Assembly: GCF_016765655.2 (NCBI RefSeq)
Contig: NZ_CP086109.1
Location: 1-64,000 of the forward strand
DNA length: 64,000 bases
From: Skermanella mucosa
Lineage (GTDB): Bacteria > Pseudomonadota > Alphaproteobacteria > Azospirillales > Azospirillaceae
Direction: 5' to 3'
Part shown: positions 9,506 through 35,634 of the stretch, piece by piece
Numbering within the stretch: the first letter of the stretch is position 1
Layout: every line of letters begins with the position of its first letter
The notes under the pieces: model-generated
The model's input: the letters and a program-made list of their open reading frames with translations, nothing else
Told to the model about the DNA's origin: nothing
The model's database searches: none
Position numbers and translations under genes: made by a program

Positions 9506-10534
9506 TCAGCGGCGGGACAGGGCACTGCGGCCGATCCACAGGCGGTTGCCGGCGCGCGTCAGGGCGTCCGGGCGCGATCGTCCCGACAGGCGCCCCACGG
9601 CCTCGTGGTACGGCCCGACGAAGCGCAGGCGGGCCGGGAGCCGGGGATAGGCCCGCCGCATCCAGTCCAGCTGCCGCCGGGCGGTCCGGAGCAGGTCGGG
9701 GTCGTCCGGCAGTCCGAATTCGTCCCGGAGGCGGTCCGGCAGCAGGTCCCCGGTGAGCGCCCGGTAGGTGGAGGGAACGAACAGCCACCAGGCGCCCGCC
9801 CCGCGGAGAAGCCCGTCGGCCAGCTCGCCGGCGGCCGGCATGACCGTGAGGACCGGTGACGCGACCATGGCGCCGACATAGGCGTGGAAGCCGGACCAGG
9901 TCGGCGGCAGCGCCGCGTCCGGAATGCCGAAGCAGGCGGCGAACCGGCGGCTTTCGGCATAATAGGCTTCGAGCTCGGCCTCGCGGAGGGGCGGCAGGAC
10001 CAGATCATGGGCGACCACGGCGGAATCGACGAGCGTCGCGAAAACCCATGTCAGCGCGGCGACGTCGTTCGCCCGGTAGCGGCTTCCCGCCTCGAAGGGG
10101 CCGGCCGCGGCCGGCATCGCCCCCTCGACGCGGCCATGCCCCCGGTTCAGCGCGCGGGACGACGCCAGCGCCTGGTCCACGGTGCCGAAGACGATGGAAT
10201 AGACCGCCTGGAAAGTGCGGTGGAAACGCCCGATCGGATCGTCGAGCGTCCGCGAATGCTCCAGGACGCCCGCCGCCACCCAGGGATGGGCCAGCTGAAG
10301 CAGCAAGGCCCGTCCCGCCCCGAGGAAGACCGCCGCCTCGCGGTCGATCCTCCAGCGCATCGAGCGGGGGCCGAACAGGCCGGACAGGGGATCGGGCGCC
10401 AGCGCCGCGGCACGGGCGAGGCGGCTCTCGAACTGTTCCGGAGAAACCGGCTCAGCACCTTCGGCGATCACGTATCCTCCCCGAGCGATCAAACGGCCAC
10501 GGTCCTGCAACAGGAATTCGCCGGGCTTCGTCAC
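9506..10534 (-). CDS. MpaB-like oxygenase / DUF2236 family protein
   Basis: A 342-residue protein of the DUF2236 family, which includes latex-clearing protein Lcp and fungal MpaB, haem or haem-like oxygenases. Family features seen: FGPRSMRWRIDREAAVFLGAGRALLLQLAHPWVAAGVLEHS (cited in part: LLLQLAHPWVAAGVLEHS), a second block FHRTFQAVYSIVFGTVDQAL, and RANDVAALTWVFATLVDSAV, with histidines at AHPW, EHS and FHR as likely ligands or catalytic residues. No signal peptide, so cytoplasmic or membrane-associated. The reaction is unknown. Apparently single-gene, facing the unrelated small gene at 10633. Confidence 0.78.
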   Translation of the reverse strand: MTKPGEFLLQDRGRLIARGGYVIAEGAEPVSPEQFESRLARAAALAPDPLSGLFGPRSMRWRIDREAAVFLGAGRALLLQLAHPWVAAGVLEHSRTLDDPIGRFHRTFQAVYSIVFGTVDQALASSRALNRGHGRVEGAMPAAAGPFEAGSRYRANDVAALTWVFATLVDSAVVAHDLVLPPLREAELEAYYAESRRFAACFGIPDAALPPTWSGFHAYVGAMVASPVLTVMPAAGELADGLLRGAGAWWLFVPSTYRALTGDLLPDRLRDEFGLPDDPDLLRTARRQLDWMRRAYPRLPARLRFVGPYHEAVGRLSGRSRPDALTRAGNRLWIGRSALSRR

Positions 10535-10632
10535 AGCCCCGTCACCGCCGCCGTGACCTGGCCCGGTTTACAGTCCCGCCGTTCGGCCACATATGTGGTT
10601 CAGGCGGGGTCCGGGACGGCCCCCGCGCACCG

Positions 10633-10947
10633 ATGACCAGGGTATCGCCGCTAGTGGATCAGAGAGAGCGTGGAGTCCGGCTGTCCGACCTTGTCGAGCC
10701 GCTGTTGAGGGTGCCGGAGGCGGACGACGGGGAACTCCTCGACGCGGTCAACCTCGTGGCCGAAGCGATCGCGGCCCTCGGCGTCGCCGTCACGGATGGG
10801 CAAGGGCGGCCTTTGCCCGGCGTTTCGGACAAGGTCGCCGTCCTTGCCCTTCTGCAGAGCTACCGCCAGGATCTCGCCCGCCGCGGCCGGACGGAGGATG
10901 CGGTGGGCCTTGGCGACCTGGCGCGGCGGATCGGGCGGGTCGCATAG
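10633..10947 (+). CDS. hypothetical protein, 104 residues
   Basis: A small soluble helical protein that I do not recognise. It reads MTRVSPLVDQRERGVRLSDL at the start, then an acidic helical middle (ADDGELLDAVNLVAEAIAAL) and a basic end (YRQDLARRGRTEDAVGLGDL). There is no signal peptide, membrane segment or cysteine. The ATG at 10633 is the first after a divergent gap from the MpaB-like gene; no strong ribosome-binding site is visible. The gene is followed by a GC-rich hairpin. Codon use fits its neighbours. Confidence 0.5.
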   Translation: MTRVSPLVDQRERGVRLSDLVEPLLRVPEADDGELLDAVNLVAEAIAALGVAVTDGQGRPLPGVSDKVAVLALLQSYRQDLARRGRTEDAVGLGDLARRIGRVA

Positions 10948-31226: not shown

Positions 31227-32903
31227 ATGTCTCAAACAGTCTTGAGCGTCGTGCTTGAAGCGCAATCCAAAGGGCTTTCTACTCTGCGGGAACTCATCGA
31301 GCAGCTCAAGCACGAGGAAGAGAACCCGCCGCCTCCCTACACCGGCTCCTACAGCCGGCTGAGGAGCCTCGTCCCCACGCTGCACTTCATGTCCATCTCG
31401 GTGTTCGAAGACGACCATTTCGATCCCGTGCTGGTGATCGAGGCGAATTTCGACGGGCCGCAGGGTCCTTTCTGGGCGCAGCTGGAGGCGGCGATCGGTC
31501 CCCGGCTTCGCGAAATCCTCCGCTACTGCGAGCGGCCCGCGGGCCGGACCGGCGAGGCCTTCGACCTGATCACCCGGCCGGGCTCGAAGCATCCGCTGGC
31601 GCCGTTCCTGGAGGCGCACACCGTGATGCCGATGATCTTCCACCAGGGCAACCGGGGCCTCGACCGCCGCCGGATCGACCGGGAGGCCAAGCTTTTCTTC
31701 GCGACGCAGGAGAAACTGGGTAACGGCGCGCAGTACCGATCCACCGACGCCGTCACCCTGCATCGGACCCTGCGGTCGTCCCTGCGCGGGAGCTTCGACT
31801 GGCTGGGCGAGCCGGAACCCGTCCGCATCCCCGGGCGCGAGCGCCTGGCCGATCTGGCGAAGCTGGCCGGGTTCGTCATGGCGGCGCTCCTCGTGCTGTC
31901 CTTCCCGGGCGTGCTGCTGGCCCTGGTCGTGCCGAACGGCTGGCTCGTGGTCATCGTTTCGCTTCTCGCCGCCTTGGCTACCGGTCGCCTGATCAAGGAC
32001 CTGCCCGACCTGTTCCGCCAATTCTCGGGATCGGAGCCGGCGCCGGTATCGGGACCGCCGCCCCGGATGCGCGATGCCTTCGCCAGGGACGCCGCGAAGT
32101 CCGCGGGGTCCGCCGTGGGCTCCGTCCTGATGGCCGTCGCCGCCGCCCTGTTCCTGGCGGTCTACGTGGCCCTTGCGGCGATCGTCTTCGGCGCCGTCAT
32201 CGCCCCCCTGATCCCCGCTCCGTTCGGCGAGACGGCCGCCGCGGCCGCGCGCGTCTTCGCCCTGGGGCTGTCGAGCGTGCCCTTCTCGCTCTGCGCCATC
32301 CTGCTCTGGCTGCGCCGGCTGGAGGACCGCGACCCCAGCCACGACGAGCCGGAAGTGCGGCCCGAACGGCTCCAGGACATGATGCGGCGGGAGGACTTCA
32401 TCGCCCAGAACCACATGGGCAGCATGGTGCTGGTCAAGCCCGGCCTGCTGCGCGCCGTGCTGATCCGGGCCGGGCTGGCCGGCCTGGCGCTGATCCTCCG
32501 CGTGGTGGCCACCAGCGGCTATCTCGGCAGCATGCGGACGATCCATTTCGCCCACTGGGCCATGGTGGGCAACGGCAGCCGCCTGATGTTCTTCAGCAAT
32601 TTCGACGGAAGCTGGGAAAGCTACCTCGACGACTTCATCGAGAAGGCCCATGGCGGCCTGACGCTCGCCTGGGGCAATTGCGTGGGCTTTCCCCCGGCCC
32701 GGTTCCTGAGCCTCGAAGGGGCGACCCACGGCCGGAAGTTCAAGAACTGGGCTCGCCATTCCATGGCGACGACCCTGTTCTGGTTCAGCGCCTACCGCGA
32801 CTACACCGTCAACCAGATCGAGCGCCATGCCCGCGTCGCCAGCGGATTGCGGCAGCCGACGCTCTCGCCGGAGGAGGCCATAGCATGGACCAGGGACTTG
32901 TGA
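31227..32903 (+). CDS. membrane protein with two similar soluble lobes, DyP/P450-associated
   Basis: A 558-residue protein that I cannot assign to a characterised family. Residues about 45-100 and 435-490 look like two copies of one module: hydrophobic strand with HF, then VIEANFDGPQGPFWAQLEAAI in the first (cited in part: EANFDGPQGPFWAQLEAAI) and MFFSNFDGSWESYLDDFIEKA (cited: FFSNFDGSWESYLDDFIEK) in the second, sharing NFDG-x3/4-(F/S)-x-x-(Q/Y)-L. Between them are about four to five membrane spans (residues 210-255, 295-335, 340-362, 405-425). Such NFDG modules recall dimeric alpha/beta-barrel folds. GAGGAG precedes ATG 31227. Its end overlaps the DyP gene by 19 bases, so the products are made together. 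Confidence 0.7.
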   Translation: MSQTVLSVVLEAQSKGLSTLRELIEQLKHEEENPPPPYTGSYSRLRSLVPTLHFMSISVFEDDHFDPVLVIEANFDGPQGPFWAQLEAAIGPRLREILRYCERPAGRTGEAFDLITRPGSKHPLAPFLEAHTVMPMIFHQGNRGLDRRRIDREAKLFFATQEKLGNGAQYRSTDAVTLHRTLRSSLRGSFDWLGEPEPVRIPGRERLADLAKLAGFVMAALLVLSFPGVLLALVVPNGWLVVIVSLLAALATGRLIKDLPDLFRQFSGSEPAPVSGPPPRMRDAFARDAAKSAGSAVGSVLMAVAAALFLAVYVALAAIVFGAVIAPLIPAPFGETAAAAARVFALGLSSVPFSLCAILLWLRRLEDRDPSHDEPEVRPERLQDMMRREDFIAQNHMGSMVLVKPGLLRAVLIRAGLAGLALILRVVATSGYLGSMRTIHFAHWAMVGNGSRLMFFSNFDGSWESYLDDFIEKAHGGLTLAWGNCVGFPPARFLSLEGATHGRKFKNWARHSMATTLFWFSAYRDYTVNQIERHARVASGLRQPTLSPEEAIAWTRDL

Positions 32904-34387
32904 TCGGGGACGACGTCCGCACGGACGGGAAGTGGGGCCTCTCGCCACGACAGCTCGGCCGCATCCAGGGGCTGGTGGTCAGCGGTTTCGCCCATCTGCC
33001 GGTGACCAGGGCGCTGTTCCTGAAGCTGGACCGGCCGGGCGGCGGTTGGCTGAAGGCGTTGGAAAAGGTGGCCCCCGTGACTGCCGCCACCGGCCGGCTG
33101 AACCGGTCCACCGCCATCGCGTTCACCTGCGCCGGGCTGAAGCGGCTCGGTCTCACGGACACGGCGGATCTATCGGCCTTCGCCCTGCCCTTCCGGGAGG
33201 GAATGCACCAGCCTGACCGGCGCCGGCGGCTGGGGGACGAGGAGAAGAACGGCACCGTCATCCCCGGCGGCCCGCTCTGGAGCGGCGATGCCTCGGCCAC
33301 GCCGCAGGCGGCCGATGTCCTTCTCCTCCTCTACGCGGTGGACGAGACCGACCTGGCCGACTGGTGCAACCAGGTCATGGAAGCGCTGGAGCCGGAAGGG
33401 GTGTCGCTCGTGCGGCACCTGGACCTGTCCCTGCGGATCGACCCAGACGGCAGGGCGCGGGAGCATTTCGGCTTCGCCGACGGCTTCTCCCAGCCGGTCC
33501 CCTATCTGGCCGGCCCGTCTACCGCCGACCCCGCCGGCGGGCACGCCGCCAGGGACCCGTGGCACGGGGTGCCGATGGGCGAGGTGCTGATGGGCTATAC
33601 CAACGCCCATGACGAGGCGGCACCCGCCCCGATCGTCCAGCGGCCGGCCGACATCGCGGCGAGGCACCCGGACCTCAAGCCCGACGGCGCGCCCGAAGGC
33701 TTCCTCGATCTCGGCGCCGACGGCTCCTACCTGGTCGTGCGCGAACTGCGTCAGGATGTCGCCGCCTTCTGGAACTCGCTGGACGCCGCGGCCCGGTCGC
33801 TGGGCTGTCCCGGCATCGACGCGGACTGGCTGGCTGACCGGATCGTCGGACGGGAGCACGACGGCGACCTGCTCTGCCCGGCCGGCGTCCATGCGGCGGT
33901 GGACGGGCAGCCGGCCAACGACGTCGGCTTCTTCCGGGAGGATTTCCATGGCCTCGGCTGTCCGCTCGGCTCCCATGTCCGACGGGCGAACCCGCGGGAC
34001 GGCCTGGCCGCGACCGAAGCCGACCGCAGCGCCCTGCTCAATGCGGCCAACAACCACCGCATCCTGCGCCGCGGCCGGAAATACGGCGAGACCATACAGA
34101 ATCGGCTGGAGGACGACCGCAAGGAGCGCGGCCTGCTGTTCATGTGCCTGAACACCGACATCGTCCGGCAGTTCGAGTTCATCCAGCAGACCTGGCTGCT
34201 CAACCGGAACTTCGCCGGCCTCTACGGCGAGACCGACCCGCTGCTCGGCCCCAAGGGTCCGTTCACGATACCCAAGGATCCGGTCCGCTTGAAGGTCGAG
34301 GTCGAGACCTACGTGAAGATGGTCGGCGGCGACTATTTCTTCCTGCCCAGCCTTCCCGCGCTCAAGTTCATGGCGGACCTGACATGA
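32885..34387 (+). CDS. DyP-type haem peroxidase
   Basis: A 500-residue dye-decolourising-type peroxidase, which uses H2O2 or organic hydroperoxides to oxidise bulky substrates. The hallmark GxxDG is GFADGFSQP (about residue 197), giving the distal aspartate. The proximal haem histidine is in LGSHVRRANPRDGL, followed by NNHRILRRGRKYGE (conserved distal arginine region) and GLLFMCLNTDIVRQFEFIQQ. No signal peptide, so cytoplasmic or bound to its membrane partner. It belongs to the long class-C/D-like branch. ATG 32885 overlaps the preceding gene; the stop overlaps the P450 start (ATGA). The coupling implies a joint pathway with the P450. Confidence 0.9.
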   Translation: MDQGLVIGDDVRTDGKWGLSPRQLGRIQGLVVSGFAHLPVTRALFLKLDRPGGGWLKALEKVAPVTAATGRLNRSTAIAFTCAGLKRLGLTDTADLSAFALPFREGMHQPDRRRRLGDEEKNGTVIPGGPLWSGDASATPQAADVLLLLYAVDETDLADWCNQVMEALEPEGVSLVRHLDLSLRIDPDGRAREHFGFADGFSQPVPYLAGPSTADPAGGHAARDPWHGVPMGEVLMGYTNAHDEAAPAPIVQRPADIAARHPDLKPDGAPEGFLDLGADGSYLVVRELRQDVAAFWNSLDAAARSLGCPGIDADWLADRIVGREHDGDLLCPAGVHAAVDGQPANDVGFFREDFHGLGCPLGSHVRRANPRDGLAATEADRSALLNAANNHRILRRGRKYGETIQNRLEDDRKERGLLFMCLNTDIVRQFEFIQQTWLLNRNFAGLYGETDPLLGPKGPFTIPKDPVRLKVEVETYVKMVGGDYFFLPSLPALKFMADLT

Positions 34388-35634
34388 CCGCGGAACAGGT
34401 ATTGCGGCCCCTGCCCGACGGCATCGGGACGCGGCTGAGGGCCTGGGCCTTCGACCACGTGGATCTCGCCTTCGGGCTGCTGCGCACGGTGAAGCCGATC
34501 CTGAAGGTCGGCGGCACGGTGCTGGTCACCCGCTACGACGACGTGCGGGAGGTCTTCCTGACGGACGACGCCTTCCCCGTTCCCTACCGGGCCAAGCTCG
34601 ACGTCATCATGGGCGGATGCCCGTTCTTCCTCGGCATGGCGGACACGCCGGAATACCGGCGCGACACCGCCGCGATGCGCAAAGCCATCCTGCGGGAGGA
34701 CATCCCGGTGCGCCTGGCCGGCGCGGTCGAGGCGCTGGCCGAGGAGATCGTGGAGCAGGCCGGCGGCCGATTGGAGGTCGTCGACGAGCTGGTGCGGCGG
34801 GTCACCTTCACGGTGCTGTCGGATTATCTCGGCGTTCCCGACCCGCACGGCGCGGACCTGCGGGTCTGGGCGACACGCCTGTTCGAGTTCCAGTTCGCCG
34901 ACCCGGGCGACGACCCGGCGCTCCGCGCCGACGTGGACCGGATGGCGCCGGCGCTCCGCGACCATATCGACCGACTGATCGCCGCCCGCCGCGGATCGAA
35001 CACCACCGGCAGCGACTTCGAGGGCGACGACGTGCTCGGCCGCTGCCTCGCCTTGCAGCGCCAGGGCGAGCCCGGTTTCTCCGACGAGCAGATCCGCACC
35101 GCGCTGATGGGCATGATCGTCGGCGGACCGCCGCAGCCGCCCATGGTGGTGCCGCAGGCGATGGAGCAGCTCCTGCGCCGCCCCGACGCCCTGATGGGAG
35201 CGCAGGCGGCGGCGCGGTCGGGCGACGACGCGCTCCTCGCCGGCTATGTGTTCGAGGCGATGCGGTTCGACCCGCTCGCCCCCGCCCTGCCCCGGGTCGC
35301 CGCGCGCGACCACCGCATCGCCGTCGGGACCCCGCGCGAAACGCTGGTTCCCAAGGGAGCCACCGTGCTGGCGGCGTTCCGCTCCGCGATGCACGACGGG
35401 CGCCGGGTCCCCGATCCCGGACGGTTCGATCCGCGCCGGATGCAGCACGAATACATCCATTTCGGCCACGGCCTGCACACCTGTTTCGGCATCCACATGA
35501 ACCGGGTGCTCCTGCCCCTGATGCTGAAGCCGCTGCTCCGGCGGAACCGGCTGAGGCGCGCTCCGGGACCCGAGGGCCACCTGACCAAGCGCGGTCCCTT
35601 CGCCGAGCGGCTTTGGGTGGTCTACGAGGCATAA
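34384..35634 (+). CDS. cytochrome P450 with atypical I-helix
   Basis: A 416-residue soluble bacterial P450. Haem-binding loop FGHGLHTCFG with Cys367, and the K-helix ExxR (FEAMRF, Glu291/Arg294) are intact. The I-helix, which normally contains (A/G)GxD/ET for oxygen activation, instead reads LMGMIVGGPPQPPMVVPQ (residues about 241-257): no acid and no threonine, but several prolines. This is the pattern of P450s that do not use NAD(P)H and O2 in the ordinary way but act on hydroperoxides (peroxygenase, dehydratase or isomerase types). No ferredoxin gene is adjacent, whereas a peroxidase gene is. ATGA overlap with the DyP gene. Confidence 0.88.
   Translation: MTAEQVLRPLPDGIGTRLRAWAFDHVDLAFGLLRTVKPILKVGGTVLVTRYDDVREVFLTDDAFPVPYRAKLDVIMGGCPFFLGMADTPEYRRDTAAMRKAILREDIPVRLAGAVEALAEEIVEQAGGRLEVVDELVRRVTFTVLSDYLGVPDPHGADLRVWATRLFEFQFADPGDDPALRADVDRMAPALRDHIDRLIAARRGSNTTGSDFEGDDVLGRCLALQRQGEPGFSDEQIRTALMGMIVGGPPQPPMVVPQAMEQLLRRPDALMGAQAAARSGDDALLAGYVFEAMRFDPLAPALPRVAARDHRIAVGTPRETLVPKGATVLAAFRSAMHDGRRVPDPGRFDPRRMQHEYIHFGHGLHTCFGIHMNRVLLPLMLKPLLRRNRLRRAPGPEGHLTKRGPFAERLWVVYEA

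Follow-up and report, generated by a model that had tools for sequence, protein, structure and literature searches.

A bacterial cassette of an NFDG-module protein, a DyP-type peroxidase and a P450 with an altered I-helix that probably makes or converts organic peroxides

Analysis of a 64,000-nt stretch of the 7.84-Mb genome of Skermanella mucosa, hereafter the window, revealed a three-gene cassette on the + strand (31227–35634) encoding a protein with two NFDG modules (protein 1), a DyP-type peroxidase and a cytochrome P450 whose I-helix has lost the usual acid/alcohol pair. The set recurs on plasmids and chromosomes, sparsely and over a wide taxonomic range; at some loci its parts are fused into one polypeptide, and at others a catalase-like haem protein stands in the place of the P450. 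The cassette probably makes or converts organic peroxides, for example lipid hydroperoxides. Its parts are the following:

31227..32903, + strand: gene of protein 1, with two putatively ABM-like NFDG modules and a predicted four-helix membrane insert, 558 amino acids (aa)
31227..31646, + strand: N-terminal NFDG module (N-module), residues 1–140, beta-alpha-beta-beta-alpha-beta, as suggested by the predicted model, fold comparison and matches of the C-module profile in relatives
31833..32330, + strand: membrane insert of four helices, residues 203–368, predicted from the model
32394..32795, + strand: C-terminal NFDG module (C-module), residues 390–523, the most conserved part of protein 1
32885..34387, + strand: DyP-type peroxidase gene, 500 aa, overlapping the gene of protein 1 by 19 bases
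33470..33484, + strand: DyP distal motif GFADG, residues 196–200, with Asp199
33974..33976, + strand: DyP His364, presumably the proximal haem ligand as in the family
34067..34069, + strand: DyP Arg395, presumably the distal Arg as in the family
34384..35634, + strand: cytochrome P450 gene, 416 aa, overlapping the DyP gene at ATGA
35122..35142, + strand: P450 I-helix motif GGPPQPP, residues 247–253, replacing the acid/alcohol pair
35254..35265, + strand: P450 ExxR motif, E291–R294
35482..35484, + strand: P450 haem-ligand Cys367, in FGHGLHTCFG

The coordinates of the open reading frames (ORFs) agree with a preliminary description of this DNA, in which three overlapping genes had been claimed. 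Orthologues in the same order were found on plasmid pSR-3 of Skermanella rosea, the closest named relative found, with identities of 92.5, 91.4 and 96.4% for protein 1, DyP and P450, respectively. The S. rosea annotation places the start of ORF 1 54 codons later, yet the N-terminal strand encoded by this ORF is kept in relatives. A chance arrangement or artefact was rejected, since orthologues show the overlapping gene order and the motifs again and many families possess the set.

To follow the cassette in other bacteria, genome contigs were scanned with a profile of the C-module, and the best 80 of 265 relatives (L021–L100) were analysed. BLAST revealed DyP in 53/55 and P450 in 44/55 of the close loci (L021–L075). 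The two loci without a BLAST match to DyP (L053 and L074) break off at a contig edge, L053 showing the start of a DyP gene by hidden Markov model (HMM), and the count of 53 includes one locus with only a DyP fragment (L055). Among the 11 close loci devoid of P450, three (L053, L073 and L074) lie at contig edges, and the others (L023, L027, L055, L059, L065, L069, L070 and L072) had no P450 within the available sequence. In the 25 more distant loci (L076–L100), BLAST detected DyP in all 25 and P450 in 21, and weak HMM matches to P450 were seen in two of the remaining four (L080 and L095). Apart from these counts, it was noticed that L055, from Methylocapsa acidiphila B2, carries broken copies of the NFDG and DyP genes (9974–10935), and that rhizobial plasmids (L015 and L018–L020) carry NFDG–DyP fusions or pairs without a P450.

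The linkage is closest where the components form one chain. A single ORF of 1,386–1,470 residues in the order P450-N-C-DyP was found in 18 of the 25 distant loci and further in L146 and L181–L184, L183 being probably the same locus as L087. In L150 (713–4130), DyP and P450 share one frame of 1,015 residues, the NFDG module being encoded by another frame next to it. Since the N- and C-modules are separate genes in some distant loci, the loci form a series from split genes up to the giant fusion. Pfam searches of six fused proteins detected solely P450 and DyP families, the P450 domain of L013 matching below cut-off, and a redox-partner domain in none of the six, in line with the earlier suggestion of a pathway free of NAD(P)H partners.

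Frequency was estimated from genome samples. In an even draw of 349 Pseudomonadota genomes, the C-module was present in 23, including that of the window, and DyP was at the locus in 23/23; the third component was a P450 in 14, a catalase-like protein in 6, both in 0 and neither in 3. A second draw was centred on G608, the genome of L090, a metagenome-assembled genome titled Actinomycetota bacterium and an already-known carrier; 5 of 246 genomes from its phylum, G608 among them, had the C-module, each with DyP at the locus. Conservation of the neighbourhood had been set beforehand as the test of the idea, and with DyP at 28/28 sampled loci and fusions into single polypeptides it proved to be conserved. 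A complete Skermanella-type set was also found in Citrobacter sp. FP75 (L062, 8894–13325), suggestive of a transfer from alphaproteobacteria.

The P450 of the window matched the Pfam p450 family at 1.7e-12, over the cut-off, and contains both the haem-binding Cys in an FGxGxHxCxG loop and ExxR, as expected of the superfamily. Its I-helix reads VGGPPQPP (residues 246–253), with Pro250 at the aligned acid position and Gln251 at the alcohol position, so the pair of an ordinary O2-activating P450 is absent; nor is it the Arg-Pro that replaces this pair in CYP152. These residues had been read in the same way before, and both sequence and alignment agree. The predicted model has a P450 fold (mean predicted local distance difference test score, pLDDT, 90.5) with the I-helix broken at 248–251, and its top structural neighbour was P450BioI with acyl carrier protein (acyl-ACP; Z 36.7), CYP134A1 and CYP109E1 being just 1.2 lower. 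The genome holds four other P450 matches besides that of the cassette, and the one of these that was aligned (L171) has AGHETT at the I-helix motif.

Of 71 cassette P450 rows aligned, two without both motif columns were dropped, and in the remaining 69, window included, Cys, Glu and Arg were kept throughout. The acid/alcohol positions were Pro-Gln in 44, Pro-Thr in 22 and Asp-Thr in 3, so that Pro occupied the acid position in 66/69, and GG-x-P-Q was found in 43/44 Skermanella-type rows (window and S. rosea included). A second, broader set of 39 rows, which overlaps the first and from which P450 fragments not longer than 250 residues were dropped, gave Pro-Gln in 19, Pro-Thr in 11, Asp-Thr in 4 and others in 5; a fortieth row (L147_983, Glu-Thr), a second P450 beside its locus, was left out. 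Cassette P450s thus lack the acid as a rule, only those of the Skermanella type lack the alcohol as well, and a minority has the canonical pair. The preliminary description, which had a P450 without the acid/alcohol pair, holds for the Pro at the acid position and fails as a blanket statement, given the Asp-Thr rows and the Thr of most fusion-type P450s. Against a degenerate P450, which was rejected, stand the near-invariance of the I-helix motif and the retention of Cys and ExxR; a haem-less partner like TIGR04515, the best NCBIfam match though far below cut-off, was rejected because the Cys is kept. The P450 tree had long branches and weak deep support, and for this reason we do not claim a single clade for the cassette P450s. 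CYP219 is a tentative name for the Novosphingobium P450.

Examination of the third position revealed that P450 and a catalase-like protein replace each other. By profiles, P450 was found in 39, the catalase-like protein in 12, both in 0 and neither in 19 of 70 loci, which were hand-picked (32 taken from the 80 scan loci, 20 genome loci and 18 plasmid loci) and are not a random sample; L161, counted as neither, has a Pfam catalase missed by the catalase-like profile. Catalase family annotations occur at loci in Rhodococcus koreensis, Acinetobacter lwoffii, Deinococcus radiodurans, Sphingomonas and Microvirga. A profile of ten catalase-like proteins matched catalases (3.8e-8), 3E4W (5.4e-8) and the coral allene oxide synthase 1U5U (5.7e-4); 3E4W, named putative uncharacterized protein in the structure table, is presumably the catalase-related peroxidase of Mycobacterium avium. 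Among the ten rows Y348 is invariant and H52 nearly so, and by analogy we take these to be the proximal Tyr and distal His of the haem site. The D. radiodurans locus (L157, 5854–9087; NZ_OV024759.1 22298–25531) encodes NFDG, DyP and the catalase-like protein, whose gene adjoins hutH and hutI and which is probably DR_A0146. This protein has no catalase activity according to PMC7247583 and PMC7775534, both citing a 2016 study; PMC7143949 goes no further than calling KatE1 the more efficient of the two. On plasmids of Nostoc (L156, 8819–9859) and Streptomyces (L158, 6487–7500), the third slot is taken by another protein of 337–346 aa, 62% identical between the two and without a Pfam match. The replacement of P450 by the catalase-like protein, which the preliminary description had not anticipated and in which the two never occur together (0/70), argues for an organic hydroperoxide step over plain use of H2O2.

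Membership of the peroxidase in the DyP family is indicated by the GXXDG motif, the proximal His and the distal Arg, as GFADG, His364 and Arg395 were invariant in 28/28 aligned rows; the roles of the last two are those known for the family. In Pfam, Dyp_perox_C matched over its cut-off (3.5e-5) and DyP_N below its own, and TIGR01413 of NCBIfam matched at 1.7e-24, yet below its cut-off.

For protein 1, no match over cut-off was found in Pfam and none in NCBIfam. Its two motifs are EANFDG (72–77) and SNFDG (457–461), and the C-module profile also found the N-module (E 1.7e-14 in G347, 1.4e-13 in G554 and 1.4e-15 in G608), by which the two modules are related. In the predicted model (mean pLDDT 90.2), two beta-alpha-beta-beta-alpha-beta modules form half-barrels packed together into one barrel, and four membrane helices lie between them, as the preliminary description had proposed when it spoke of similar modules flanking about four spans. 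Loops 1–2 and 3–4 of the insert are short and uncharged, and loop 2–3 contains five Lys/Arg and five Asp/Glu. The even number of helices would place both modules on one side of the membrane, presumably facing the cytosol; the membrane tethering suggested earlier thus agrees with the model, in which protein 1 is anchored. The comparison with dimeric alpha/beta barrels, also proposed there, gave similarity to tandem ABM/SchA-like barrels with VIA (9LMN, Z 14.0, root-mean-square deviation 4.1, 225 residues aligned; 9LTX, Z 11.1, 4.7, 203 residues). The E-values of Foldseek for the ABM-like matches were poor (about 0.06–0.4), its only match below 0.001 being a meaningless partial one to a pump, and the assignment stands on the two Z scores of VIA, which re-aligns just the list that Foldseek gave. 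In the model, then, protein 1 looks like an ABM-like dimeric alpha/beta barrel made of two such halves.

By these observations, the cassette might act as one functional unit, the unfused proteins associating on what is presumably the cytosolic side of the inner membrane. The unit would consist of a DyP, a self-sufficient P450 and a tandem ABM-like barrel that four helices hold in the membrane. The anchored barrel would present a lipid-like substrate, the DyP would then make an organic peroxide from it, using H2O2 or by a radical or dioxygenase-like step, and the P450, devoid of the proton-relay pair with which P450s usually activate O2 at the expense of NAD(P)H electrons, would cleave the O-O bond of that peroxide, followed by rearrangement or hydroxylation. 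In other bacteria, the catalase-like haem protein would take the place of the P450. Several P450s acting on H2O2 or hydroperoxides lack the acid/alcohol pair (PMC5818669, PMC13049297), some keep the Thr (PMC13049297), and haem dioxygenases are paired with P450s in fungal fusions and with a catalase-related lyase in Nostoc (PMC13049297). A haem peroxidase combined with a P450 of this kind, or with a catalase-like protein, follows the same logic as the fungal and Nostoc pairs, and an organic hydroperoxide is therefore favoured. Our tentative preference, held at slightly less than even odds, is that the substrate of the P450, or of its catalase-like stand-in, is a peroxide and most probably an organic hydroperoxide of lipid type, converted without NAD(P)H partners. 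It is rather doubtful, though conceivable, that the DyP oxygenates a lipid, or primes it to become a hydroperoxide, and hands it on to a P450 or catalase-like isomerase within one membrane-anchored protein or complex, making the cassette an independent bacterial oxylipin-type synthase; if true, it would be the first DyP acting as a dioxygenase, beside plant lipoxygenase-CYP74 (LOX-CYP74), fungal dioxygenase-P450 (DOX-CYP) and the coral system of LOX and catalase-related allene oxide synthase (LOX-cAOS).

Several observations weigh against the proposed chemistry. The normal Asp-Thr pair is present in 3/69 rows and in 4/39 of the overlapping set, most fusion-type P450s keep the I-helix Thr, and the Cys loop is of the ordinary bacterial type. 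Neither P450 nor catalase-like protein was found by profiles in 19/70 loci (one of them, L161, with the Pfam catalase), and Skermanella-type loci share no constant neighbour. The link to lipids is weak, with patatin in 3/116 near ORFs and not among the far families listed (25 of 138). Partners of another P450 system might serve the cassette P450, the genome having four other P450 matches. No DyP is known to act as a fatty-acid dioxygenase.

Some of the same evidence can be read differently. If the P450 were an H2O2-driven peroxygenase like CYP152, with the DyP sharing or buffering H2O2 and no organic hydroperoxide as intermediate, the loss of the acid/alcohol pair and the Pro at the acid position would be explained, as CYP152 has Arg-Pro there (PMC5818669), and the structural similarity to P450BioI with acyl-ACP, at Z 36.7 and 1.2 above CYP134A1 and CYP109E1, would fit. 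We consider this unlikely, because the motif has no Arg for carboxylate binding, a catalase-like stand-in would be odd, and DyP and peroxygenase would compete for H2O2. Detoxification, with the DyP and its haem partner clearing the membrane of lipid hydroperoxides formed under oxidative stress, gains from the carriage of the cassette by D. radiodurans, where the probable member DR_A0146 was reduced in a CRP mutant, 2-fold in the absence of H2O2 and 1.33-fold in its presence (PMC4868304), from its presence on plasmids, including one of 12.4 kb in Acinetobacter, and from the cyclase-TPR genes often, and Crp/Fnr genes sometimes, found beside fusion-type loci. The sparse occurrence (23/349 genomes), the elaborate fusions and the specialised I-helix motif make it decidedly unlikely.

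A reading of the P450 as an ordinary monooxygenase driven by O2 and NAD(P)H, with an unusual proton path, partners encoded elsewhere and a secondary metabolite as product of the cassette, would account for the canonical Cys loop and the Asp-Thr of some relatives; the best fold neighbours of protein 1 are polyketide-pathway ABM proteins, and with four other P450 matches in the genome such partners may exist. It is nevertheless improbable, with a redox-partner domain in 0/6 fusions scanned, a motif near-constant across families and a catalase-like replacement that it can hardly explain. Even less is to be said for a plasmid-borne conflict or defence module with the haem pair as damaging effector: many loci are on plasmids, S8 peptidases, nucleases or a phospholipase D-like protein are found around rhizobial versions without P450, and an endonuclease/phosphatase-family protein adjoins L065, but such neighbours occur mainly beside P450-less versions, the exception being a below-cut-off Exo_endo_phos match at the P450-bearing L042, and we regard this reading as highly improbable.

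The neighbouring genes were analysed for hints of the substrate. Lipid genes were found at some loci, namely patatin and FadL at L141, an LCAT-like gene at L149, thioesterase and patatin at L159, and 3-hydroxyacyl-CoA dehydrogenase (3HCDH) at L155 (A. lwoffii) and L157 (D. radiodurans). For comparison, 283 ORFs near the cassette and 203 far from it were taken, of which 138 and 99, respectively, remained after a GC-frame filter and 116 and 99 were scanned. The 116 near ORFs included three patatins (two of them those of L141 and L159), two 3HCDH and four guanylate cyclases; none of the three families was among the 25 of 138 families listed for the 99 far ORFs, which leaves room for at most about one far match. 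An enrichment of lipid genes near the cassette is thus only suggestive and too weak to claim. With respect to the earlier proposal of lipids or terpenes as substrates, lipids gain weak support, and nothing was found that points to a terpene pathway, which we rejected as a candidate, terpene genes not having been searched by name.

At the fusion-type loci (L076–L100), an adenylate/guanylate cyclase-TPR cluster was present in 16/25 and a Crp/Fnr-type regulator cluster in 9/25, and the cyclase-TPR gene, its Pfam identity known from one, lies directly upstream of the fusion in all three mapped loci. In Skermanella, Mut7-C RNase and SDR genes come after the cassette; a broader operon was rejected, as relatives have no constant neighbour. 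Upstream of its cassette, the S. rosea plasmid also carries a gene with a GRAS family protein annotation (L011, 5954–7072), and near the P450-less rhizobial versions there are S8 peptidases, a CHAT protein, DNA/RNA non-specific endonucleases or a phospholipase D-like protein. The A. lwoffii locus (L155, 1039–8524), on the permafrost plasmid pALWED3.4 (12.4 kb), combines NFDG, DyP and catalase-like genes with an alkanesulfonate monooxygenase.

Annotations of the cassette members read hypothetical protein, Dyp-type peroxidase, catalase family protein or cytochrome P450. The natural substrates of DyP peroxidases are mostly not known, and the cassette gives these enzymes physiological company. It also suggests a role for catalase-like proteins without catalase activity, such as the one described from D. 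radiodurans, and natural P450–peroxidase fusions without a redox-partner domain may be of use in biocatalysis. No DyP–P450 or DyP–catalase-like cassette was found among the titles and abstract starts listed by searches of the open-access literature, of which one listed 20 of 224 papers and two narrow ones none, which is thin evidence of absence, and dye-decolorizing is not mentioned in the first 300,000 characters of an octadecanoid review (PMC11719350).

The component families are known, and it is their combination, a two-haem peroxide-processing system with a DyP as peroxidase, that is apparently new. Protein 1 has the tandem half-barrel fold of ABM/SchA-like proteins (WhiE-ORFI, 9LMN) in its predicted model, but differs from 9LMN by an identity of only 10%, by membrane helices inserted between the halves and by having no Pfam ABM match at E up to 1. 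The CYP152 peroxygenases also lack the acid/alcohol pair and have a Pro in the motif (PMC5818669), whereas the cassette P450 has Pro-Gln for Arg-Pro, an ordinary Cys loop and a place in a three-part cassette. In corals and cyanobacteria, catalase-related allene oxide synthase (AOS) or hydroperoxide lyase, a catalase-like haem protein, is combined with a peroxide-making partner, a lipoxygenase or haem dioxygenase (PMC5617202 and PMC13049297), and the catalase-like profile of the cassette matches coral 1U5U; here, the partner is a DyP with an NFDG protein, and the window has the P450 version. By analogy, the exchange of P450 and catalase-like proteins in the cassette may parallel that between the coral/cyanobacterial and the plant/fungal oxylipin pathways, in which catalase-related enzymes and P450s swap. 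Fungal DOX-CYP enzymes (linoleate diol and allene oxide synthases) are likewise single chains in which a self-sufficient P450 with altered I-helix is linked to a haem peroxidase-like enzyme, and, with the quoted strings compared by eye, substrate recognition site 4 (SRS4) of fungal 9S/9R-AOS also holds a Pro (PMC13049297). The cassette differs from them in that its peroxidase domain is a DyP and not a dioxygenase of the peroxidase-cyclooxygenase (peroxidase-COX) superfamily, in its putatively ABM-like membrane part and in its order P450-NFDG-NFDG-DyP.

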